Origin: Bacteroidota bacterium
Lineage (GTDB): Bacteria; Bacteroidota; Bacteroidia; Chitinophagales; Chitinophagaceae
Length of the DNA: 64,000 bases
Direction of reading: 5' to 3'
Assembly: GCA_029558715.1 (NCBI GenBank)
Contig: JAKQEA010000113.1
Span: forward strand, 1 to 64,000
Part shown: piece by piece, positions 5,216 through 59,545 of the stretch
Layout of the letters: every line of letters begins with the position of its first letter
Position numbering within the stretch: the stretch's first letter is position 1
Made by a program: the position numbers and the translations under genes
Notes under the pieces: model-generated
Database searches by the model: none
Told to the model about the DNA's origin: nothing
Seen by the model: the letters and a program-made list of their open reading frames with translations, nothing else

Positions 5216-5704
5216 ATGAGAAGGAATCAAAATATTATATGCTGGCTGACAGCCTGCAGTTTGTGGTTTATAACATTCTCCTGTACCACTATCGATCTGT
5301 ATGAAAAATCAGTTACCATACCTGGTCATAGCTGGAAAAGTGATTACAAACCTTCCTTCACATTTACTATAAAAGACACTTCCTCCCCGTATCTTTTATA
5401 TTTCGTTTTACGGCATAATGACAAATACAGTTTTAATAATCTATATATTAATCTTTACGCCAAACAACCAGGGCAGGATTCGGCCCTATCGGTACGCTAT
5501 GATTTACCGCTGGCAACAAATGAAAAGGGTTGGCTGGCAAGTGGAATGGATGATATTTATGAACACAGGATACTTCTGACACCAAGGGGGCAGGAGTTTT
5601 ATTTTAAGAAACCCGGAGATTATACTTTTACCATCGAACAAATAATGCGGGAAGACCCGTTGAAAAACGTACTAAACGCAGGGCTGCGTATTGAAAAGAA
5701 ATAA
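5216..5704 (+). CDS. gldH: gliding motility lipoprotein GldH
   Basis: This 162-residue protein has a hydrophobic signal with a lipobox (FITFSC, Cys23). The body has the GldH pattern, including YEKSVTIPGHSW, a beta-rich middle and the GDYTFTIEQIMREDPL segment near the end. GldH is a lipoprotein required for gliding and for the T9SS machinery in flavobacteria. Here it is followed after 15 bases by a sensor kinase gene. Its presence does not prove that this organism glides. Confidence 0.88.
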   Translation: MRRNQNIICWLTACSLWFITFSCTTIDLYEKSVTIPGHSWKSDYKPSFTFTIKDTSSPYLLYFVLRHNDKYSFNNLYINLYAKQPGQDSALSVRYDLPLATNEKGWLASGMDDIYEHRILLTPRGQEFYFKKPGDYTFTIEQIMREDPLKNVLNAGLRIEKK

Positions 5705-5719
5705 TAAACCCTTTGCAGT

Positions 5720-6709
5720 ATGCAGGATGAAAACCGGAAAAGATTACGCCGCACTACTTTCATATACTGGACATTACTCTTTTATATCATTGCAGCATTA
5801 GTATGGTGGTTTATCGTTCTTGAAAAGCAAAATCAGCAAATTGCAAAACAGCGGTATATTAATCTTTCTTCACAAACGGACTCGTTAACAACAATACGCC
5901 TGGCTGAAAAAATGGAAGCCATTAATAATGAGACTACCCGGAATACAGGTAAATATATAGCAGAAGGAATAACCTTCCTTATTCTTATCCTGATTGGCGC
6001 TTCCTTTGTGTACCGGTCTGTTAAAAGACAATTCAAGCTTCAGCAACAGCAGCAAAATTTCATGATGGCAGTAACCCATGAACTCAAAACACCTATTGCT
6101 GTTGCCCGGTTAAACCTGGAAACTCTGCAGAAATATAATCTTGATCCTGAAAAACAAAAGAAGCTCATTCGCACCACACTTGATGAAACAACCCGGCTTA
6201 ATTTTCTGACTAATAACATTCTTGTTTCATCGCAACTGGAAGCAGAAAGGTACAAATCAGACAAAGAAGAACTGGACCTCTCTGCCTTATTAAAAGATTG
6301 TGTGCAGGATTTCAAAAAACGATATCCTGACAGATTATTTAACCAGGAAATTGAGGATGATGCGGATGTTAAAGGAGATCCGTTGTTATTGCAAATACTA
6401 ATCAACAACCTGCTGGAAAATGCCTTAAAATATTCGCCGAAAGAAGGAATCATAACAGCGGTTTTGAAAAAAAATAGTTCGAATCTTCAATTACATATAA
6501 TAGATGAGGGTCCGGGTATTCCTGATGAAGAAAAGAAAAAGATCTTTTCTAAGTTTTACCGGATAGGTAATGAATCTACCCGAAAAGCACAGGGAACCGG
6601 GTTAGGCCTTTACCTTTGCCAAAAAATTGCCAAGGGGCATAATGCCGACATTTCGGTGACAAACAATGCACCCTCAGGCAGTAATTTTGCTGTTATTTTT
6701 AAAGTATGA
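5720..6709 (+). CDS. sensor histidine kinase
   Basis: The 329 residues comprise two membrane helices (about 14-34 and 81-98) bounding a short periplasmic segment, a HisKA domain with HELKTP (His120) and an ATPase domain with the N box (LLENALKYSP), G1 (DEGPGIP) and G2 (GTGLGLYL). No separate HAMP domain is evident. It autophosphorylates and passes phosphate to the response regulator encoded next, with which it overlaps by four bases (ATGA), a sign of translational coupling. The signal sensed is unknown. Confidence 0.93.
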   Translation: MQDENRKRLRRTTFIYWTLLFYIIAALVWWFIVLEKQNQQIAKQRYINLSSQTDSLTTIRLAEKMEAINNETTRNTGKYIAEGITFLILILIGASFVYRSVKRQFKLQQQQQNFMMAVTHELKTPIAVARLNLETLQKYNLDPEKQKKLIRTTLDETTRLNFLTNNILVSSQLEAERYKSDKEELDLSALLKDCVQDFKKRYPDRLFNQEIEDDADVKGDPLLLQILINNLLENALKYSPKEGIITAVLKKNSSNLQLHIIDEGPGIPDEEKKKIFSKFYRIGNESTRKAQGTGLGLYLCQKIAKGHNADISVTNNAPSGSNFAVIFKV

Positions 6710-7413
6710 GCGGAGATAAAAGGCCATCTATATTACTGGTGGAGGATGAAGAAAACTTTCATGAAGCACTTAAGTTAAACCTGGAACTGGAAGGTTACGA
6801 GGTAACTTCTGCATTTGACGGAGCCGCTGCATTAAAAGCTGTTGAAAATGAATATTTCGACCTGATTATCCTGGATGTCATGCTGCCTGAAATGGATGGT
6901 ATAAGTGTTACAGAAACAGTCCGCATCAGCAATAACGAAGTGCCCATTCTTATTCTCAGTGCCAAAAACAGCAGCGCTGATCGTGTGCTCGGTCTTAAAA
7001 AAGGTGCTGATGATTACCTTACCAAACCATTCAACCTCGAAGAGCTCTTATTAAGAGTACATAAACTCATTAATAAAAATAAAAAACTACAGGACAAATC
7101 AAGTATTGGCGACATTTATACTTTTGGCAATAATACTATTGACTTTAAAGCTCAGGAAGCCAGTAGTTTCAATAACGCAAAAATTCAGCTTAGTAAAAAG
7201 GAAACCATGCTCCTGAAACTGCTCATTGAAAATAAAAATGAAGTAGTTCCAAGGGAGAAGATACTACAAGCCGTCTGGGGCTACAATGTCTACCCCACTA
7301 CCAGAACAATAGATAACTTTATCCTCAACTTCCGCAAATACTTTGAAGAGGATAGCCGTAATCCCAAATATTTCCACTCAGTAAGAGGTGTTGGATACAA
7401 ATATTCAGAATAA
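6706..7413 (+). CDS. OmpR-family response regulator
   Basis: An N-terminal receiver domain has the acidic pocket VEDEE, phosphoacceptor Asp57 (LIILDVMLP) and the TKPF lysine. It is followed by a C-terminal winged-helix domain with KKETMLLKLL and VRGVGYKYSE. It is the cognate partner of the kinase encoded just before it, and 235 residues is the usual length. Its last nine bases overlap the convergent batD gene. Confidence 0.95.
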   Translation: MSGDKRPSILLVEDEENFHEALKLNLELEGYEVTSAFDGAAALKAVENEYFDLIILDVMLPEMDGISVTETVRISNNEVPILILSAKNSSADRVLGLKKGADDYLTKPFNLEELLLRVHKLINKNKKLQDKSSIGDIYTFGNNTIDFKAQEASSFNNAKIQLSKKETMLLKLLIENKNEVVPREKILQAVWGYNVYPTTRTIDNFILNFRKYFEEDSRNPKYFHSVRGVGYKYSE

Positions 7414-14132: not shown

Positions 14133-15173
14133 ATGGTGACAATCGGCAACATACAACTACCTGAATTTCCGCTGCTTCTGGCCCCGATGGAAGATGTGAG
14201 TGATCCTCCTTTCCGTGCGGTATGCAAGGATAATGGCGCCGACCTGATGTACACTGAATTCATTTCATCTGAGGGATTGATAAGAGATGCCATCAAGAGC
14301 CGGAAAAAGCTGGACATCTTCGAATATGAACGGCCAGTTGGCATACAGATATTTGGTGGCGATGAAGAAAGCTTATCTATGGCCGCAAAGATTGTGGAAG
14401 TCACTAATCCGGACCTGCTCGATATCAACTTTGGCTGCCCGGTTAAAAAAGTAGCATTGAGAGGTGCAGGTGCAGGTGTATTGAAAGATATTGATCTCAT
14501 GGTTCGTTTAACATCAGCTGTAGTTAAATCAACTTCATTGCCTGTCACAGTAAAAACAAGATTGGGCTGGGATGATAACAATAAGAATATCGAAGAAGTA
14601 GCCGAACGATTACAGGATGTAGGTATTAAAGCATTAGCTATTCATGGACGTACAAGAACTCAGATGTACAAAGGCGAAGCGGACTGGACACTGATCGGTA
14701 AAGTGAAAAATAATCCCCGCATTAAAATTCCAATTTTTGGTAACGGAGACATTGATTCTCCTGAAAAAGCCCTGGAATATAAAAACAGGTATGGTGTAGA
14801 TGGCGTTATGATCGGGCGGGGAGCTATCGGTTACCCGTGGATTTTTAATGAAATAAAGCATTTTATTCAGACAGGTGAACATTTACCTGCCCCAACTATC
14901 GAGGACAGGGTGGCGGTTTGCCGTAAACATTTATACAAATCTGTGGAATGGAAAAACCCGGTAGTTGGTGTAAATGAAATGAGAAGGCATTATGCCAACT
15001 ACTTAAAAGGTCTGCCAAATATTAAAGAATACCGCAACAAATTAGTGACGCTGAAATCAGTGGAAGAAATTGATGAAGTGCTGAACGAGATACAGCAAGT
15101 ATATACTGGTTATAGATTTGAAAAAACACCTATTGAGCTGATCAATTATCATGAAAAATGCCCGGTAAATTAG
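14133..15173 (+). CDS. dusB: tRNA-dihydrouridine synthase
   Basis: A TIM-barrel flavoenzyme with LLLAPMEDVSDPPFR, the catalytic-cysteine motif DINFGCPVKKV, AIHGRTRTQMYKG and MIGRGAIGYPWIF. It reduces uridines to dihydrouridine in the D loop of tRNAs using NADPH and FMN. The 346-residue length and motif set fit DusB. The stop overlaps the stop of the convergent small membrane gene by four bases. Confidence 0.93.
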   Translation: MVTIGNIQLPEFPLLLAPMEDVSDPPFRAVCKDNGADLMYTEFISSEGLIRDAIKSRKKLDIFEYERPVGIQIFGGDEESLSMAAKIVEVTNPDLLDINFGCPVKKVALRGAGAGVLKDIDLMVRLTSAVVKSTSLPVTVKTRLGWDDNNKNIEEVAERLQDVGIKALAIHGRTRTQMYKGEADWTLIGKVKNNPRIKIPIFGNGDIDSPEKALEYKNRYGVDGVMIGRGAIGYPWIFNEIKHFIQTGEHLPAPTIEDRVAVCRKHLYKSVEWKNPVVGVNEMRRHYANYLKGLPNIKEYRNKLVTLKSVEEIDEVLNEIQQVYTGYRFEKTPIELINYHEKCPVN

Positions 15174-15415
15174 GTCAGGGGTATTTTCATCGCTTTCATA
15201 AGCCCATACAGAGACACCAATGTCCATGTTCCCTCCAGTATCACAAATGGCCAATAACCTATCAGCAGTGAGGCTATGGTAGCCAGTCCGGCTCCGATTA
15301 TGTTCAATACAAAATACATTTTGCTATCCTGCTTCAGCAGTTTTTCTGTGCTAAAAAAGTAGGCCAGTAGTATCAACCCTACACCTGCTGAACCGATAAT
15401 GTCATTCGCATTCAT
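15170..15415 (-). CDS. small membrane protein, CBU_0592-like
   Basis: The 81 residues form three hydrophobic helices (about 7-20, 32-52 and 54-73) separated by short charged loops such as STEKLLKQDSK. The pattern and length resemble the CBU_0592-like family of unknown function. The gene starts 29 bases from a divergent gene, and both start codons lie inside a perfect 8-bp inverted repeat. Confidence 0.6.
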   Translation of the reverse strand: MNANDIIGSAGVGLILLAYFFSTEKLLKQDSKMYFVLNIIGAGLATIASLLIGYWPFVILEGTWTLVSLYGLMKAMKIPLT

Positions 15416-15444
15416 AATGCTTATTTTTATACAAAATACGCATT

Positions 15445-15888
15445 ATGGCAAAAGCTGTAAAAAAGAAACCAGTTACTAAAAGAAAAACCTGGCAGGAAAA
15501 ATTACATATAGATAAGAAAGCAGAGGTCAAGAAAAATGATTATGATTTTGCCGATATTCCCGCAGGCAGCAAAATGCTCATTGCAACACCCCTGATAGTG
15601 GATGAATACATCCGGCAAATACCAAAAGGCCATTTCACCGATATAAAACAAATCCGAAAAGACCTGGCCGCTGAATACAAGGCCCAATATACCTGCCCGG
15701 TAACAACAGGAATATTCATCCGTATTGTGGCTGAGGCTGCTTATGAAGAATATGAAAAAGGAAAACCACTGAGCAAGATTACTCCTTTCTGGCGGGCCTT
15801 AAGCGCCAAATCACCATCGGCAAAAAAACTAAGCTTTGGATTAAAGTTTTTACTTGATCAGCAAAAGAAAGAAGGGATCGTTTCCTGA
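15445..15888 (+). CDS. MGMT-like (alkyltransferase-fold) protein without the PCHR cysteine
   Basis: After a basic N-terminal tail of about 40 residues, the protein shows IPKGHFTDIKQIRKDLA, CPVTTGIFIRIVAEA and ITPFWRAL. These are the conserved segments of a small family with the DNA-binding fold of O6-methylguanine methyltransferase but without its PCHR methyl-acceptor site. Function is unknown; DNA binding is plausible from the lysine-rich tail. Its first 19 bases are identical to those of the unrelated gene at 18949. Confidence 0.6.
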   Translation: MAKAVKKKPVTKRKTWQEKLHIDKKAEVKKNDYDFADIPAGSKMLIATPLIVDEYIRQIPKGHFTDIKQIRKDLAAEYKAQYTCPVTTGIFIRIVAEAAYEEYEKGKPLSKITPFWRALSAKSPSAKKLSFGLKFLLDQQKKEGIVS

Positions 15889-44370: not shown

Positions 44371-45252
44371 TTATACCGCTTCCACTCTGCTTCCTGTTGG
44401 GATTTTAAGCAGCAGAGCTTCAGTTATAGAATTTCTTAACGATTCTGTGGATCCGATATGATAAAAGTGATCAAAAGTAACCAGCTTTGTATCGTGCCAA
44501 TGTTCATCTACATGTGTATTTCTTCTATATTGGTTTTCTAACCACATAGATAATGCATACTCACACGGGAGGGCTGCAGCTATTTCAGATAATTTTATTG
44601 CATTATCATTATCCCATGTATTAAAATAGTCGGCATGCCTGCCAATATAAGGTGGGTCTAAATAAACGAAATCACCAAATTGTGCCAGTGTCAGCGTTTC
44701 CTCCCAATCTGAAACAATAAATTTCCAATTCCTGTCTCTTATTATTTCTGCAATAGCATTTACCTGGTTGACAATCTTTGTAACATAGGCCTTTGAGAAC
44801 CGTTGCGGCTTATGCCCAAAAGGAACATTAAAGTTTCCTTTACCATTAAACCGCATCAGGCCATTAAAACAAGACCGGTTCAAAAAAAGAAAATCAAATG
44901 AATCTGCTGATTTGTTAAATCTGTTCCGTACTTCATAGTAATAATCAACCCCACCTTTAGACAGCTGTTCACCCATTTTTTCAAGGACTTCTCTGACAGA
45001 ATGCTTGTTTATTTCACCTTTCTGGATGCCCTTGTAAAAATTAATGATATGGCTGTTGGTATCAGCAAGCAAGGCCGTATCGGGTCTTATATTAAATGCA
45101 ACAACTCCGGAGCCCAGGAATGGTTCTATCCATCTCCCGTTGCCGTCCCATTGAATGTTTTGTGAAATGAATTTTACCAGTTTTGTTTTTATACCCTGGC
45201 ATTTAATTGGCGGCACATCAATTTTTGTAATATTTCTAGGCAAAAAACTCAT
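44371..45252 (-). CDS. EcoRV-like DNA adenine methyltransferase
   Basis: The 293-residue D12-class N6-adenine methyltransferase has EPFLGSG (44-50) for S-adenosylmethionine and DPPY at 199-202. The segments VPPIKCQGIKTKLV, FLFLNRSCFNG, GNFNVPFGHKPQRF and DPPYIGRHADYF line up throughout with M.EcoRV. It should methylate the first adenine in GATATC. It lies nine bases after the partner endonuclease gene, in the same direction. The coding region looks richer in A and T than its neighbours. Confidence 0.9.
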   Translation of the reverse strand: MSFLPRNITKIDVPPIKCQGIKTKLVKFISQNIQWDGNGRWIEPFLGSGVVAFNIRPDTALLADTNSHIINFYKGIQKGEINKHSVREVLEKMGEQLSKGGVDYYYEVRNRFNKSADSFDFLFLNRSCFNGLMRFNGKGNFNVPFGHKPQRFSKAYVTKIVNQVNAIAEIIRDRNWKFIVSDWEETLTLAQFGDFVYLDPPYIGRHADYFNTWDNDNAIKLSEIAAALPCEYALSMWLENQYRRNTHVDEHWHDTKLVTFDHFYHIGSTESLRNSITEALLLKIPTGSRVEAV

Positions 45253-45261
45253 TAGTTAAAT

Positions 45262-45945
45262 TTAAAAATTTTTCCAGAAGTTTTCAAACTCCTCCTTCGT
45301 TTTAAAAGGCCCTCTACCTTCACTAAAATCTTCGATATTGCAACTTTTTATTGAACTGATATTAGTCGTATTTCCGCTCCCTTTTACCTTCCCTGCTATT
45401 GAATGTTTATGCTGGACAAAAAATTCAATGTTGCTATACGGAGCTTCTAACTGTGCAGCCTCAATAATACTCCTTATTTCAATATTCTTTAACTTAAGAT
45501 TTCTGTCATAAAGGAAGCCTATAACCCAATGTTCGCTGTAATCACTATAAGGAAATAAAATTCCTTTTTTACCAGAAGGATCCTGAAGATATGACCGGTA
45601 AGAGCCTAATGTAAATGCAAAAGGTTTGACATTACCATTCTTTAATTTTTGCCGATAGGTCGACTTGATATCGACAGCAATTTTCGAATTGGGCTTTGCC
45701 GGATCAAATAACGTAAATTCCGGATATTGATTTTGCACCCCTTTGAACAGTTCGTATCCGTTCTGTTCTGCTATTTCAATAATTACAGGTTCACATAAAA
45801 TTTCAAAAATACCTGACAAAATCTTAGAGTCATAGGATAAAGTATAAACTTTTGAACTTTTTGTAAGAACTCCTACCAAATCCCATTCCAATCCATTAGG
45901 ATATAATCTTGTGATTGCATTTTTAAATTCGTCCTTAAAATTCAT
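45262..45945 (-). CDS. EcoRV-like type II restriction endonuclease
   Basis: The 227 residues match R.EcoRV across their length, including SGIFEIL (Glu48), the PD motif with VDIKSTY (Asp92, Lys94), FTLGSYRSY, and the recognition loop GSGNTTN (189-195). The first carboxylate of the site, Asp74 in EcoRV, is Glu76 here. The predicted site is GATATC. The ATG lies nine bases after the cysS stop, so it may be read with cysS; the methylase gene follows. Confidence 0.92.
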   Translation of the reverse strand: MNFKDEFKNAITRLYPNGLEWDLVGVLTKSSKVYTLSYDSKILSGIFEILCEPVIIEIAEQNGYELFKGVQNQYPEFTLFDPAKPNSKIAVDIKSTYRQKLKNGNVKPFAFTLGSYRSYLQDPSGKKGILFPYSDYSEHWVIGFLYDRNLKLKNIEIRSIIEAAQLEAPYSNIEFFVQHKHSIAGKVKGSGNTTNISSIKSCNIEDFSEGRGPFKTKEEFENFWKNF

Positions 45946-54346: not shown

Positions 54347-55102
54347 TCAAATGTTTAATCCCCCGCAAACACTCAACGTTTGCCCGGTGATATAAGATGA
54401 CATATCAGAAGCTAAAAACAATGTTGCATTCGCAATATCTTCAGCTGTGGCAAATTTTCCCAGTGGTATCCCGGCTTTATATTTATCAGCAGCTTCTCCT
54501 TCTTTTAAATAACTGGTCATATCTGTTTCCACAAAACCGGGAGCAATAGCATTGCATCGGATATTCCTGCTACCGAGTTCTTTTGCTACTGATTTAGTAA
54601 AGCCGATAATACCGGCTTTGCTGGCTGCATAGCTGCTCTGCCCTGCATTACCAATCTCACCAATAATAGAACTCATATTGATGATAGAACCGGATTTGGC
54701 CTTCATCATCGGGCGGATAACCTGCTTGGTCATATAAAATACACTGTTCAGGTTCACCTGTATCACCTCACTCCATTGCTCCGGCGTCATGCGGAGCAGG
54801 AGATTATCTTTGGATATGCCTGCATTGTTTACACATATATCAACGGTGCCAAATTCTTTCAGCACATCATTTACAAAGGTTTCACATTGTGCAAAATCAC
54901 CGGCATTACTTTTATATGCCCTGGCATGAATACCAAGGCCAGTCAGCCTCGCCTCCAGCGAGGCGGCTTTCTCTGCACTGCTGTCACTCACATATGTAAA
55001 TGCCACATTAGCTCCCTGCTCGGCAAACTTTATAGCAATACCTTCTCCTATTCCACGGGCAGCACCAGTTACAATAGCAATTTTTCCTTCGAGTAATTTC
55101 AT
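54347..55102 (-). CDS. fabG: 3-oxoacyl-ACP reductase
   Basis: A 251-residue classical SDR with TGAARGIGEG near the N terminus, NNAGISKDNLLLRM, and YAASKAG (Tyr-x3-Lys), with a C terminus TGQTLSVCGGLNI typical of FabG. It reduces 3-oxoacyl-ACP in fatty acid elongation. It begins four bases after the AAA ATPase gene and is followed by the macro-domain gene after six bases. Confidence 0.92.
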   Translation of the reverse strand: MKLLEGKIAIVTGAARGIGEGIAIKFAEQGANVAFTYVSDSSAEKAASLEARLTGLGIHARAYKSNAGDFAQCETFVNDVLKEFGTVDICVNNAGISKDNLLLRMTPEQWSEVIQVNLNSVFYMTKQVIRPMMKAKSGSIINMSSIIGEIGNAGQSSYAASKAGIIGFTKSVAKELGSRNIRCNAIAPGFVETDMTSYLKEGEAADKYKAGIPLGKFATAEDIANATLFLASDMSSYITGQTLSVCGGLNI

Positions 55103-55106
55103 ATAA

Positions 55107-56723
55107 CTAATTTAAGCAGTTTTCAATTTGTTCCCTGAACCATTTTGTTTTACTAAGTACAGATGTAGAAAGGCCTTGTCTCTCCGGCAGTTCTTTTCCA
55201 TAGTCTTTGGCGGGGAATACTTTATAGAATGTTTCAAAGTCGTCGCTTCTGAGTAATTCTATAACACCTTTGTAACCATCTTTAAATTCTTTTAGTTTCT
55301 TGGCTTTCTCATTTTCTTTGTAAAAAGGATACCCGGCTCTTGCCTGAATAATTCCAGCGGCGAGGTAATCCCGTTCATTATTTTTTATATCTGTAATTTT
55401 TTGAGCATATGCTGTTTTATCAAATGCTTTTCCGGCACTATGATAATGTTCTTCAAGATTTTCAGGGTGAAAGAGAAGGTTTTCAAAGGAATAATAAGGC
55501 AGCACAAACAAATTAGGGTAAACTTTTTTTAGTTCTTGAACCTCCTCATCAGAAAGATAATCCCGGTCAACAAGCCCGAATTGTTTGTGATTTTTGGCTT
55601 TATGGAATACGTCCATTTTATCAATAGCAACAAAGAAAAGGGTATTGGGGATATTCAAGTCGTTGTAAAATGGTGTATCTGTATTCTCAGAGAAAATAAT
55701 TTTTCTACCCTGCACAACCTGATCTATAAAGGCTTTAGATACAGCTATCTCAAAAACCTCTAAGGACTCTTTAGGTTTTGGTGTTAATATCTGTGTTTTG
55801 TCAAAGTCTAAATCATCAAAGTCAATAATACATCCATTTTTATAATCAGTAGCATACTGAATAAATCCTAAAGAATGAGAGGCTGTCCAAAACTGAGAGT
55901 CCTCAGGGATCCAGTTTTCTACAATTTCTTTAAGGAAATTATATTGAAGTTTTGTGTTTAAATGAAGGTCAATTTCATCAAAAAAATATATTGCTTCTTG
56001 AAAATATTCCTTTCGAGCGACAAGATTTATTAAGACATTAAAGACTTCTTTCTCACCGGCGCTCAAATAATGATAATGAAATTCAGACCCCCCTTTTTGA
56101 AAAGTTATTTTAGCTAGCTTACCTTCTAATGGCGGTATTACTTCAAGTAGTTTGAGCTTTGTAGAAGGCTCATTTCCAAAAATATTACTGAAAGCTGTGT
56201 TTATTGGGTTAATAACCTTATCAATGATTTCGGACTTATTTCTATCTACGAAATACTCTTTTAAAAGCTTTGCAAAGATATGTTCTAGGTCGTTCTCAAA
56301 TCTCTCATCTCTATCAATAAATGTAATTGGCCTGTCTGTATCACCATCAATGTTAAACGAAGTCCCTAAGCCGGTTCTTGATAATCTTGGCACTTGACGA
56401 AAACTTGTTCTTCCATAAAAACTATTTTTAGAAAGCTTGCCAGAACGATGCCACTTCCCAGAAAAAATACCCTCTTTGCCAAACTCTTGTGTAGTGAGAG
56501 CAACTTCTAGTTGAATTCCACTCTGCTTCTCGAAATTAAGGCGAGTTGGCCTATTTGTTTTGCCATTTTGTGAGGAAAAAAACTCAAAAGCATCAAAAAC
56601 ACTACTTTTTCCGCTACCATTACTACCAATAAGTAATACAAGTCTTGCATTATCTGGAATGCCCTTAATAGTTAAGTCAGTAAATCTCTTAAAGTTCTTT
56701 AGTTCTAAACTTTTGATTTTCAT
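55107..56723 (-). CDS. AAA ATPase fused to DUF4435 (TOPRIM-like) domain; PARIS-like
   Basis: The 538 residues begin with an AAA15/AAA21-type ATPase: Walker A GSNGSGKS (33-40), LSAGE signature (220-224), Walker B IYFFDEIDL (245-252 region), and TASHS histidine (280-284). From about 335 a second domain reads IIFSENTDTPFY (Glu346), FGLVDRDYLSDEE (Asp386, Asp388) and YYSFENLLF (Glu414), the DUF4435 signature related to TOPRIM nucleases. The PARIS anti-phage system encodes these two domains as AriA and AriB; fused forms are known. The match is by motif and length is shorter than typical fused forms. Confidence 0.75.
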   Translation of the reverse strand: MKIKSLELKNFKRFTDLTIKGIPDNARLVLLIGSNGSGKSSVFDAFEFFSSQNGKTNRPTRLNFEKQSGIQLEVALTTQEFGKEGIFSGKWHRSGKLSKNSFYGRTSFRQVPRLSRTGLGTSFNIDGDTDRPITFIDRDERFENDLEHIFAKLLKEYFVDRNKSEIIDKVINPINTAFSNIFGNEPSTKLKLLEVIPPLEGKLAKITFQKGGSEFHYHYLSAGEKEVFNVLINLVARKEYFQEAIYFFDEIDLHLNTKLQYNFLKEIVENWIPEDSQFWTASHSLGFIQYATDYKNGCIIDFDDLDFDKTQILTPKPKESLEVFEIAVSKAFIDQVVQGRKIIFSENTDTPFYNDLNIPNTLFFVAIDKMDVFHKAKNHKQFGLVDRDYLSDEEVQELKKVYPNLFVLPYYSFENLLFHPENLEEHYHSAGKAFDKTAYAQKITDIKNNERDYLAAGIIQARAGYPFYKENEKAKKLKEFKDGYKGVIELLRSDDFETFYKVFPAKDYGKELPERQGLSTSVLSKTKWFREQIENCLN

Positions 56724-56763: not shown

Positions 56764-57960
56764 TTATTTCTCTTTCCAGACATAAAATATTACCCCTTTT
56801 TTATCATCGCTGATAAAAAAGGAACGGTCATCCCATTGTATTACATCACAGGGACGACCATACCGTTTATCCTCAGTCTTTCCCTGTAAGAATCCTGTAA
56901 CTATTTCCCGGTAAGTACCATTGGGCAACATTTGTACTACAGCATTACCCCGCTGCCTCCATACACTGGTGCTTCCATGCAGCGCAGTGACAAATGAATT
57001 ATTGAGTACCGGGTCTTTAAATCCCTTAAAAAAATCAAACCCCAAAGGTGCAGAATGAGCTTTAATACCCCATTTACTGATAGGTGGCCGCTTTACCCAT
57101 ACAGGATGAACAGAATCTTTAAAATCAGGATCGGCAAGAATCCGCTTCTTATACTGGTAATAATATGGCCAGCCATAGAATGCATTTCGTTCAATTTTCA
57201 TCAATTGTTCTTCCGGCTTATCAGGGCCCCTGTTATCTCTGCCCATATTTGTAGCCCATAATTCATTGTTGATCCACTTCAGACCAACCGCATTTCGCAA
57301 GCCGCGGGCTATAATTTGCTTATCGCTGCCATCAAGCGGGTTCATTTCAGTGATGGTAGCTCTTATCTCTTCTTTTTCTATACAGGCGTCGCAACTGCTG
57401 CCTACACTGACATAGATTTTATTTTTACTAAAAGCAAAACTCCTGGTAAGATGCCAACCGCCATACTTGTAGCTCAGCCCATAATCCGGAAAAGTTACAA
57501 TGACTTTTGCCGTGCCCGATGGTTTATTATCTCCATTGTTGTAGGGATAATAACTTAACTGGTGTGTTTCTGCAATATAAATAAAAGACTGTGTGTCATT
57601 GCTGTAAAAGCCGACCTGGTTGGGGTTGTGCAGATCTTTCAGATAAGTGATAACATTTGTAAACTGCTTTGTTTTATTGTCCCAGCCATCCAATATAAAT
57701 ATTTTACCTTTTTTATTGTCTGTCTTATCATACATATCAGTAACAAATAATCTCCCATCCGGGCTTTTAGCAAAGAAGCGGGGGCGATCCAATCCTTCTG
57801 CCGCAACACTAATTTTGTATCCTGAAGGTATCTTAAGAGTAAAAGAAATATTTCCTTCTAATTGAATCTTCTGATCAACCAGTTTCAGGAGCTGTTGTGA
57901 AAATGAAAAAATGCCGAAAAATATATTCAGCAATAAAAAAAGAATCGGTTTTTTGTACAT
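56764..57960 (-). CDS. PQQ-type glucose/sorbosone dehydrogenase-like secreted protein
   Basis: A signal peptide (ends FSQQ) is followed by a six-bladed beta propeller with GRLFVTDMYD, VSVGSSCDACIE, NPLDGSDKQIIARGLRNAVGL and GWPYYYQYKKR, as in the sorbosone/glucose dehydrogenase family. Members oxidise sugars with PQQ in the periplasm; the PQQ site is not proven here. The AAA ATPase gene lies 40 bases downstream. Confidence 0.8.
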   Translation of the reverse strand: MYKKPILFLLLNIFFGIFSFSQQLLKLVDQKIQLEGNISFTLKIPSGYKISVAAEGLDRPRFFAKSPDGRLFVTDMYDKTDNKKGKIFILDGWDNKTKQFTNVITYLKDLHNPNQVGFYSNDTQSFIYIAETHQLSYYPYNNGDNKPSGTAKVIVTFPDYGLSYKYGGWHLTRSFAFSKNKIYVSVGSSCDACIEKEEIRATITEMNPLDGSDKQIIARGLRNAVGLKWINNELWATNMGRDNRGPDKPEEQLMKIERNAFYGWPYYYQYKKRILADPDFKDSVHPVWVKRPPISKWGIKAHSAPLGFDFFKGFKDPVLNNSFVTALHGSTSVWRQRGNAVVQMLPNGTYREIVTGFLQGKTEDKRYGRPCDVIQWDDRSFFISDDKKGVIFYVWKEK

Positions 57961-57970
57961 AGATGAAAGC

Positions 57971-59476
57971 TTATCGGATAGAGAGAATTTCTTCCAGGTA
58001 TGTTCTGTCGTTGCTCAGGCGGGGAACTTTATGCTGCCCGCCCAGTTTTCCCTTGCTGCGTAACCATTCCGCAAATATTCCTTTGCGCAGGGAATGCACA
58101 ACCGGTAATCCTAATGCAATGTCTTTATGTCTTTTGGCCTCATAATCGCTATTGATACTTTTTAGCGCTGTGTCGAGCTCCTTAACAAATTGCTCAAGGC
58201 TGGCAGGTTCATTTTCAAATTCAATCAGCCACTCATGGGCCCCGTTGGAGTTTGCAGAAAAATAAACAGGCGCCGCAGTATAATCATTCACTACAACCCC
58301 TGTTTTTTCAGATGCAATGGCAATAGCCTTATCAGTATTATCAACAATCACTTCTTCTCCAAATGCATTAATGTAATGCTTCAGCCGGCCAGATACTTTC
58401 ACACGGTAAGGCTTCAGGCAGGTGAATTGAACTGTATCACCAACAAGGTATCTCCATAGTCCGCCGTTAGTACTGATAACAAGGGCATAATTTTTACCTA
58501 TCTCCACATCCTGTAGCCCCATTGTTTGTGGTTTTTTCTTTCCATACTCACTGACCGGCATAAACTCCATGAAAATACCATGGTCTGTAAATAACAACAT
58601 CCCTTCTTGCCCGGGTACATCCTGTGCTGCAAAAAAACCTTCGCTGGCATTATACATCTCCAGGTAATTGATATTCTTTCCGATTAGTCTTTGGAACTGC
58701 TCTTTATAAGGGGTAAAGGAAACACCTCCATGCATGTATAGTTCTAACGAAGGCCACACTTCACTTATGTTCTTTTTTCCTGTTATTTCCAGTATTCTTT
58801 TAAACAGGACCAGTGTCCAGGTTGGTACACCGGATATCGAAGTCACATTTTCCTTTATGGTATTTTCTGCCAGTTTTTCAATCTTACTTTCCCATTCATC
58901 CATCAATGCCACACTAAGATCAGGTGTACGAAGCCAGTGACCCCAGAAAGGTGAATTCTGCAACAATACAGCACTGAGATCGCCATATTGTGCATCGTTA
59001 TTCATAGGATTAATGTTATGACTGCCGCCTAATACTAATCCTTTTCCAGTCAGTAATTCTGAATCCGGGTTGTATTGATAATACAGAGAGAGTACATCCT
59101 TTGAGGCTTTATAATGTCCATCCTGCAGACTTTCTTCACTAATCGGAATAAATTTACTCTTATCACTGGTGGTACCACTGCTTTTTGCAAACCAGTAAAT
59201 AGGAGTATTCCATAAGATATTTTGTTCCCCCTGCATGATACGTTCGATATAAGGTTTTATATCCTCATACTCATGAATGGGAATAGCTTCCTTGAATGCT
59301 TTCACATTAAAAAGCCCGGAGAAATTATACTTTCTTCCAAACTCTGTGTATTGGGCAGAAGTTACCAGGTCCTGCAGTACCTCACGTTGAGCATCCAGGG
59401 GATTATTTTTCCAGGCTTCGATTCGCCAAAGCCTCATACGGGCAAGCGATGATATGGCAGGACTTAGCAACTTCAT
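57971..59476 (-). CDS. GH3 family acyl-adenylating protein
   Basis: Started at ATG 59476; the longer frame uses TTG. The 501 residues show WFAKSSGTTSDKSKFIPIS, the ATP/AMP-binding motif I, MYNASEGFFA (motif II) and YLVGDTVQFT (motif III), which define GH3 proteins. Plant members conjugate amino acids to jasmonate or auxin; bacterial members are widespread and uncharacterised. It may activate a carboxylic acid as an adenylate. Next gene is 10 bases away. Confidence 0.88.
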   Translation of the reverse strand: MKLLSPAISSLARMRLWRIEAWKNNPLDAQREVLQDLVTSAQYTEFGRKYNFSGLFNVKAFKEAIPIHEYEDIKPYIERIMQGEQNILWNTPIYWFAKSSGTTSDKSKFIPISEESLQDGHYKASKDVLSLYYQYNPDSELLTGKGLVLGGSHNINPMNNDAQYGDLSAVLLQNSPFWGHWLRTPDLSVALMDEWESKIEKLAENTIKENVTSISGVPTWTLVLFKRILEITGKKNISEVWPSLELYMHGGVSFTPYKEQFQRLIGKNINYLEMYNASEGFFAAQDVPGQEGMLLFTDHGIFMEFMPVSEYGKKKPQTMGLQDVEIGKNYALVISTNGGLWRYLVGDTVQFTCLKPYRVKVSGRLKHYINAFGEEVIVDNTDKAIAIASEKTGVVVNDYTAAPVYFSANSNGAHEWLIEFENEPASLEQFVKELDTALKSINSDYEAKRHKDIALGLPVVHSLRKGIFAEWLRSKGKLGGQHKVPRLSNDRTYLEEILSIR

Positions 59477-59545
59477 TGTTGCTGGCAAAATAGATAATTT
59501 GAGGCAATGCCCCTAAAAAATGAATCCGTCCTTTCAAAGTAATTT

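Follow-up and report, generated by a model that had tools for sequence, protein, structure and literature searches.

A single-gene ABC ATPase-TOPRIM protein with an AriB-like C-terminal half as a candidate PARIS-like anti-phage effector in a Chitinophagaceae bacterium

The present work points to a single gene, encoding the 538-aa protein P0001, as a one-gene PARIS-like anti-phage effector, in which an ATPase would gate a TOPRIM nuclease and thereby cause abortive infection, probably by cutting RNA; we put the probability of this reading at roughly 0.6. The gene (55107..56723, minus strand; traced by ORF and translation, Pfam and PADLOC profiles, a 56-row alignment and AlphaFold2) lies in a 64,000-nucleotide stretch of DNA from a Chitinophagaceae bacterium, referred to here as the window. 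The observations in support are the two domains with both active sites invariant, the AriB-type homology, the scattered distribution of the family, its gain as a single gene, restriction-modification (R-M) genes beside part of the sister clade, and the recurrence of the C-terminal module behind other NTPases. Counted against it are a missed DUF4435 cut-off, weak Foldseek E-values, an Asn in place of Gly after the first TOPRIM Glu (E-N), the housekeeping setting and the lack of a match among phage records.

The gene is a real ORF on the minus strand (as are all window features below), with an ATG start and no internal stops, and has a GC content of 34.3%, against a value of 39.9% in the window (SD 1.5 among segments of equal length). 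About residues 1-300 (55824..56723) correspond to an SMC/Rad50/OLD-type ABC ATPase, as judged from Pfam, profile relatives in the PDB and Foldseek. This half surpassed the Pfam cut-offs, with 54.7 bits for SMC_N (E 1.2e-14), 48.8 for AAA_15 (cut-off 32.1 bits) and 40.3 for AAA_21 (cut-off 27 bits), in agreement with the AAA15/AAA21-type ATPase that a sequence-only reading of the window had proposed. Its relatives in the PDB by profile were PtuA, SMC and AriA, and likeness extends to RecF, SMC and Rad50. The full-length AlphaFold2 model (mean pLDDT 87.2, pTM 0.65) retrieved retron PtuA ATPases at the top of a Foldseek search, with SMC heads and TsOLD (6p74, rank 42) lower down.

Every motif named by the sequence-only reading is present. 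The translation and the 56-row alignment place the Walker A motif GSNGSGKS at residues 33-40 (56604..56627), the ABC signature LSAGE at 220-224 (56052..56066), Walker B at D249-E250 (55974..55979) and H283, which we take to be the switch histidine, at 55875..55877; the putative TOPRIM residues are E346 (55686..55688), the DxD of D386-R-D388 (55560..55568) and E414 of an ENYL-like motif (55482..55484), which pairs with the invariant Glu of DUF4435 proteins. K39, L220, S221, G223, E224, D249, E250, H283, E346, D386, D388 and E414 are invariant in all 56 rows, and the motif match is therefore not a matter of chance.

Residues 322-332 (55728..55760), modelled at a pLDDT under 50, are probably a flexible linker. 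The remainder of the protein (residues 333-538, 55110..55727; PADLOC, hhalign, AlphaFold2 and Foldseek) is, judging from profiles and models, a TOPRIM domain homologous and nearest to AriB/DUF4435. The sequence-only reading had called it DUF4435/TOPRIM-like: homology to AriB bears this out, whereas the Pfam DUF4435 model scored the C-terminal half, scanned alone, at 17.9 bits (E 0.0027) against a cut-off of 27. A profile search found no DUF4435 match in the own genome at E 0.001, and only five of the 56 C-domains in the alignment matched at E 0.01. In contrast to this shortfall, the best PADLOC model for the half was AriB (30.1 bits, E 1.2e-7) and for the whole protein AriAB (66.8 bits), the latter matched by all 56 rows at 1e-12 or better. 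In hhalign comparisons, the 56-row C-domain profile scored 98.0% (E 3e-13) against six single-gene ATPase-DUF4435 proteins, 96.6% (E 6e-10) against 14 separate DUF4435 proteins, 69.4% (E 4e-5) against 11 OLD TOPRIMs and 0.1% against an unrelated control; E...DxD...E is likewise invariant in the DUF4435 alignment, as is one Gly. The profile also retrieved DUF4435 fusions in genomes G343, G347, G231 and G275 (E 3e-9 to 2e-7). The OLD-like TOPRIM model PF20469 gave no match in P0001 at E up to 10 and none in the own genome at 0.001.

Residues 320-538 were modelled confidently by AlphaFold2 (pLDDT 92.2, pTM 0.88), and Foldseek ranked chains of two PARIS entries first and second of 350,542 in the PDB, 8v46_D (prob 0.97, E 0.012) and 8ux9_A (prob 0.93, E 0.018), with weak E-values, TM about 0.4 and no C-domain match in the PDB passing E 0.001. 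We take both chains to be AriB because the 464-residue chains of the PARIS entries are the ones named AriA. The OLD TOPRIM 6nk8 followed at rank 3. When the PDB was searched by sequence, the C-domain profile did not find AriB, and neither did the profiles of the 14 DUF4435 proteins or the six fusions, so the miss is uninformative. In a viral fold library, ATPases and ATPase-nuclease proteins were matched and no AriB-like lead emerged. AriB similarity and the acidic residues, whose absence the sequence-only reading had named as speaking against itself, were both found.

Searching genome contigs with the profile of a three-sequence alignment, we kept 80 loci among the matches listed (at least 86). 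These include 57 complete, near-full-length ORFs (L008 upward), 55 of which were aligned with P0001 in the 56-row alignment (A2), with L022 (truncated) and L027 (late start) left out. Lengths range from 510 to 621 aa (median 548.5), and single-ORF ATPase-DUF4435 proteins, seven among the 21 DUF4435 places in the phylum, from 528 to 696 aa; the earlier impression that 538 residues is short is thus not borne out. The midpoint-rooted tree falls into two groups, both fully supported: clade A comprises 45 rows, including P0001, from Bacteroidota and others, and its sister, clade B, 11 rows from Patescibacteria, Pseudomonadota and others. The canonical TOPRIM E-G is found in 11/11 rows of clade B, while clade A reads E-N in 37/45 (P0001 among them), E-G in five, E-R in two and E-S in one. 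By sequence, P0001 belongs to a divergent PARIS-like clade below the cut-off of the standard DUF4435 model. L050 was considered as a natural two-gene split and set aside, its frame shift lying inside a conserved stretch, as in a broken or mis-assembled copy. In Caenarcaniphilales MAGs, gene copies adjoin end to end (L039:47-3561, also L053 and L055).

Homologs of P0001 are rare and scattered. Across the phylum, 6/395 genomes had any match at E 1e-20 (three full-length and own-clade-like, two N-half, one C-half). Within the family, 9/147 had one at E 1e-15, namely four full-length own-clade proteins (the own genome, L138, L139 and L140), three N-half matches with a sister-type TOPRIM (L141-L143) and two of the C-half only. 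Another genus gave any match in 3/61 genomes (two full-length and own-clade-like, one N-half).

The genomic setting speaks for gain of the gene on its own. On one side of P0001, starting 4 bp past its stop, lies an SDR gene (54347..55102; ORF list and orthologue loci) that we take from its sequence to be fabG-like; on the other lie a glucose/sorbosone-dehydrogenase-like gene (56764..57960; Pfam GSDH, 29.7 bits) and a gene presumed, again from sequence, to be GH3-like (57971..59488; orthologue loci). Among 30 fabG orthologue loci examined, taken from the 58 matching genomes of 60 searched, the GH3-like gene adjoins fabG in 19 (-106 to +141 bp) and is absent within the 1.5-kb flank in eight; the own genome is one of the 30, and another ORF sits between the two in L167 and L193. 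The junction may therefore be an insertion spot. The ORFs in L167 and L193 are single and of 282 and 331 aa. An ATPase-TOPRIM gene lies between the GH3-like gene and fabG, 3-4 bp before the latter, in the own genome, in L008 and in L016 (same contig as L138); it fills the gap alone in L016 and shares it with the GSDH-like gene in the other two. A second junction was found in the genus of G099, Mucilaginibacter, to which L049 (of which L003 is a part) is titled. Out of 30 doxX-like loci examined, from the 60 matching genomes of 61 searched, a permease directly follows doxX in 14 (-4 to +5 bp) and is not next in 15, and an ATPase-TOPRIM gene follows it in one (L194, the genome of L136); L003/L049, L009, L010, L011 and L014 likewise carry the gene between doxX and permease. 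Single ATPase-TOPRIM genes have thus been gained at two unrelated housekeeping junctions. No integrase was seen at either junction, and in the cleanest cases no partner gene travels along. By eye, clade-A loci mostly sit amid housekeeping-looking genes and not in defence islands, and the most widely shared neighbour clusters recur in 8/70 (SDR proteins) and 7/70 loci (an ABC protein).

At E 1e-5, none of 50,697 phage records matched P0001, and neither P0001 alone nor the C-domain profile matched any viral contig; the A1 alignment profile brought up at least eight relatives there. A sister-type ATPase-TOPRIM gene of full length occurs in one IMG/VR viral contig (L089:8001-9599; 532 aa, E-G, DRD, ESYL). 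The only own-clade copy among the viral matches listed, also from IMG/VR, is ATPase-only, ending just past the linker region without the TOPRIM domain (L088:7986-8948); it could be a product of decay or a decoy. Plasmids yielded one match, to the N-half only (30.7%).

A possible link to R-M was suggested by the window itself. The pair that the sequence-only reading had seen about 9 kb away is indeed there, 9.2 kb from the P0001 gene: an EcoRV-type endonuclease (45262..45945; PF09233, 160.1 bits) and a D12-class N6-adenine DNA methyltransferase (44371..45252; PF02086, 154.3 bits), separated from it by housekeeping genes, with what we take to be a cysS-like gene beside the pair. This pair (44371-45945) is itself low in GC (35.8%) and was possibly acquired as well. 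That its proximity fits a guard role as in PARIS was the second part of the earlier claim, and here the outcome differs between clades. Using 12 R-M reference proteins (drawn from the window and L060-L074, hence with self-matches) and a radius of 3.5 kb, a homology scan, able to detect only relatives of these references, found no R-M homolog at 43 clade-A loci (44 rows, L039 holding two), 12 of which have one flank shorter than 2 kb. The same radius held R-M genes at 5/11 clade-B loci (L060, L062, L064, L065 and L074, themselves suppliers of references) and at 4/18 loci outside the tree (L056, L061, L073 and L078). The guard idea hence holds in the sister clade and is weak in that of P0001, where linkage was recognised, by eye, at one of the 43 loci, L032: the end of an HsdR-like gene lies 2.3 kb upstream, separated by two further genes, and the scan places HsdM/HsdS 6.7-7.9 kb upstream. 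Besides this type I R-M locus (L032:3-11623), the contig holds another family copy, which is truncated (14506-15501).

Pfam identified R-M genes beside seven relatives. In L064 (532-3940), an EcoRV endonuclease and a D12 methyltransferase precede the family gene, the methyltransferase ending 2 bp before it; L078 (8130-10369) has the same order by homology, with the family copy cut short. In L061 (7291-14911), HsdR overlaps the start of the gene by 11 bp, HsdM follows 1 bp apart and HsdS lies one gene further. L062 has an MmeI-type protein upstream, L065 an EcoRI methylase as the second gene upstream, L060 a C5 methylase downstream, and L073 and L074 Eco57I-type proteins upstream. A 'guard of restriction' role becomes directly testable through the sister-type genes that neighbour EcoRV-type, MmeI-type and type I systems, along with an EcoRI-type methylase. 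R-M guarding tied to the window's own pair was tried and dropped: blasting EcoRV and D12 against the ORFs of L001-L095 gave matches near family genes only in L064 and L078 (EcoRV) and in L056 (D12), whose family fragment is not part of the alignment. The remaining match, L093, is a viral contig with a weak ATPase match only. A methylase-motif flag in L043 looked false by eye. In a PADLOC test of neighbours, 107 immediate-neighbour sequences matched 256 models and 107 ORFs over 6 kb away matched 38, a crude comparison in which models overlap and one protein may match many. The distant set was drawn from 127 such ORFs; the immediate set comprised 106 of 127 (long and family ORFs dropped) plus the EcoRV gene of L064, a second neighbour whose manual inclusion biases the comparison.

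The C-terminal module is not confined to ABC ATPases. Two proteins, 839 and 841 aa long (L160, 2146-4665; L161, 2338-4863) and found in 2/147 family genomes, also end in it, with 41 and 37% identity to P0001, and in both the LRR, Roc, COR-A and COR-B domains exceed their Pfam cut-offs. Their domain layout is an LRRK2-like architecture. About 0.7 kb downstream of the L160 gene lies a further ATPase gene (5376-7265) with, by eye, a TOPRIM-like C-half. A 922-aa protein (L162:5495-8263) joins the module to a long, helical-looking region; Pfam gave it no match at 0.001, and a stretch that looks PIN-like by eye matched PIN_5 weakly (E 0.0095, below cut-off). E...DRD...ENY is kept in all three. Presence on LRR-Roc-COR GTPases is what one would expect of a portable effector. 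A wider reading, which we put forward tentatively and think somewhat doubtful as a whole, would see in the module a portable AriB-like nuclease mounted on unrelated NTP-driven sensors (an ABC ATPase, the LRR-Roc-COR GTPases L160 and L161, and L162 with its PIN-like stretch); the LRR ROCO GTPases might then be bacterial immune receptors of NLR layout acting through an AriB-type nuclease, with the ABC-ATPase form as just one member of a modular family of sensors and effectors, whose restriction-linked clade would guard R-M systems. For the role of some bacterial ROCO GTPases, these fusions offer a concrete hypothesis. A full-text search of a partial library for ROCO or Roc-COR together with TOPRIM, which is no proof of novelty, brought up PMC7159879, where in the available part Roc-COR and ROCO occur in the references only and TOPRIM is absent, and PMC8195603, listed with no count for TOPRIM.

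We infer for P0001 a role in defence, with a trigger, an oligomer, an abortive outcome and an RNA substrate. The ABC ATPase would dimerise or oligomerise on ATP, sense an infection cue and keep the TOPRIM domain inactive; once triggered, it would allow the tethered TOPRIM domain to assemble a nuclease site with two metals (E346, D386, D388, E414), and the activated nuclease would cut a host target such that growth of the infected cell stops. RNA, and most likely tRNA, is the favoured target, given that the nearest relative is AriB. As the nuclease is tethered and not releasable in the way AriB is from AriA, gating would have to be conformational.

Other explanations fit parts of these data. 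Strict PARIS function, that is, sensing of Ocr-like anti-restriction proteins, cleavage of tRNA-Lys and backing up of the nearby EcoRV system, would account for the AriAB/AriB profile and fold similarity, for the R-M pair 9.2 kb off and for R-M genes beside sister-clade members and 2.3 kb from L032. It is nevertheless improbable, given the missed DUF4435 cut-off, the covalently tethered effector and the absence of homologs of the 12 R-M proteins within 3.5 kb at the 43 other clade-A loci (limited references, short contigs). Moreover, Ocr is not known to act on type II restriction, to which EcoRV belongs. Still less do we believe that P0001 serves the host in DNA repair or cell-cycle control and merely resembles a defence protein. 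The RecF/SMC/Rad50-like N-half and the housekeeping neighbours would suit such a role, and a host role of this kind is reported in the available part of PMC12796447 for the archaeal OLD-family ATPase Cran1; however, matches of any kind in only 9/147 family and 3/61 other-genus genomes, and insertion into a spot where relatives have the flanking genes side by side, make this very improbable.

Of greater weight, though in our view still rather unlikely, is a Class 1 OLD-type nuclease acting on DNA, by nicking or degradation, and not on RNA. It would have the same one-gene ATPase-TOPRIM order and stand-alone, non-island context (PMC10568477, available in part), and TsOLD 6p74 (rank 42 for the whole model) and 6nk8 (third for the C-domain) appear among the fold matches. 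Against it, PF20469 is matched neither by P0001 nor elsewhere in its genome at the thresholds given above, and profile similarity to OLD TOPRIMs is clearly below that to DUF4435.

PARIS, whose mechanism is covered by PMC11455837, consists of two genes or one fusion and is defined by Pfam-based thresholds, which the accessible text of PMC9122126 gives as 27 bits for DUF4435 and, for fusions, 80 bits for AAA_15+DUF4435 and 20 bits for AAA_21+DUF4435. If PDLC02981 and PDLC02982 are the PARIS authors' AAA_15+DUF4435 and AAA_21+DUF4435 models, as we assume, P0001 scores 66.8 bits on the former vs. 80, and its C-half alone 19.7 on the latter vs. 20. We do not file P0001 as PARIS because it missed the DUF4435 cut-off, one of the defining features tested. 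The PARIS resemblance noted from the sequence thus stands in that the C-half is structurally nearest AriB, and falls short in strict membership, by the DUF4435 cut-off and perhaps, with model equivalence assumed, by AriAB score. P0001 shares with PARIS the ABC ATPase and AriB/DUF4435-type TOPRIM, the four acidic residues of DUF4435 proteins and, as nearest solved folds of its C-half, the PARIS chains; single-gene fusions are already known (PMC9122126 and PMC10568477, as far as available). It differs in lying below the DUF4435 cut-off, in its own clade and with almost no R-M context, and its halves are smaller (about 315 and 205 aa vs. 464 for AriA and 305-306 residues for the partner chains in the PDB). 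For AriB, a two-metal tRNase mechanism has been proposed, and the E26A variant was inactive in toeprinting, according to the accessible part of PMC12409363. In PARIS, the AriA ATPase hexamer holds AriB until Ocr sets it free, whereas covalent fusion argues against release in P0001. Six single ORFs of the phylum that join an ATPase to DUF4435 (L099, L107, L108, L112, L114 and L116) have its architecture and size class, yet are over the DUF4435 cut-off that P0001 is under.

In Gabija GajA, the type I-B retron ATPase-TOPRIM and Septu/retron PtuA, the ATPase half is related to that of P0001; unlike in Gabija, no GajB helicase is adjacent, the flanks being fabG-like (by eye) and GSDH-like (Pfam), and inspection of the adjacent ORFs by eye revealed neither a helicase nor a reverse transcriptase or HNH gene. 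Class 1 OLD proteins (P2 Old, TsOLD), described in the available part of PMC10568477 as one gene, ATPase then TOPRIM, stand-alone and of non-island context, share gene number, order and setting with P0001, but by profile its TOPRIM departs from the OLD type (PF20469 gave no match) and is nearer AriB. OLD-ABC proteins with TOPRIM have been recruited to BREX loci, and OLD-ABC occurs in R-M-like systems (PMC12839542, in part). The available part of PMC10568477 describes it as unclear whether single-gene AriAB fusions form a separate OLD class and whether they function differently, and the P0001 family, missed by DUF4435-based searches, provides a clean one-gene test case for that question.
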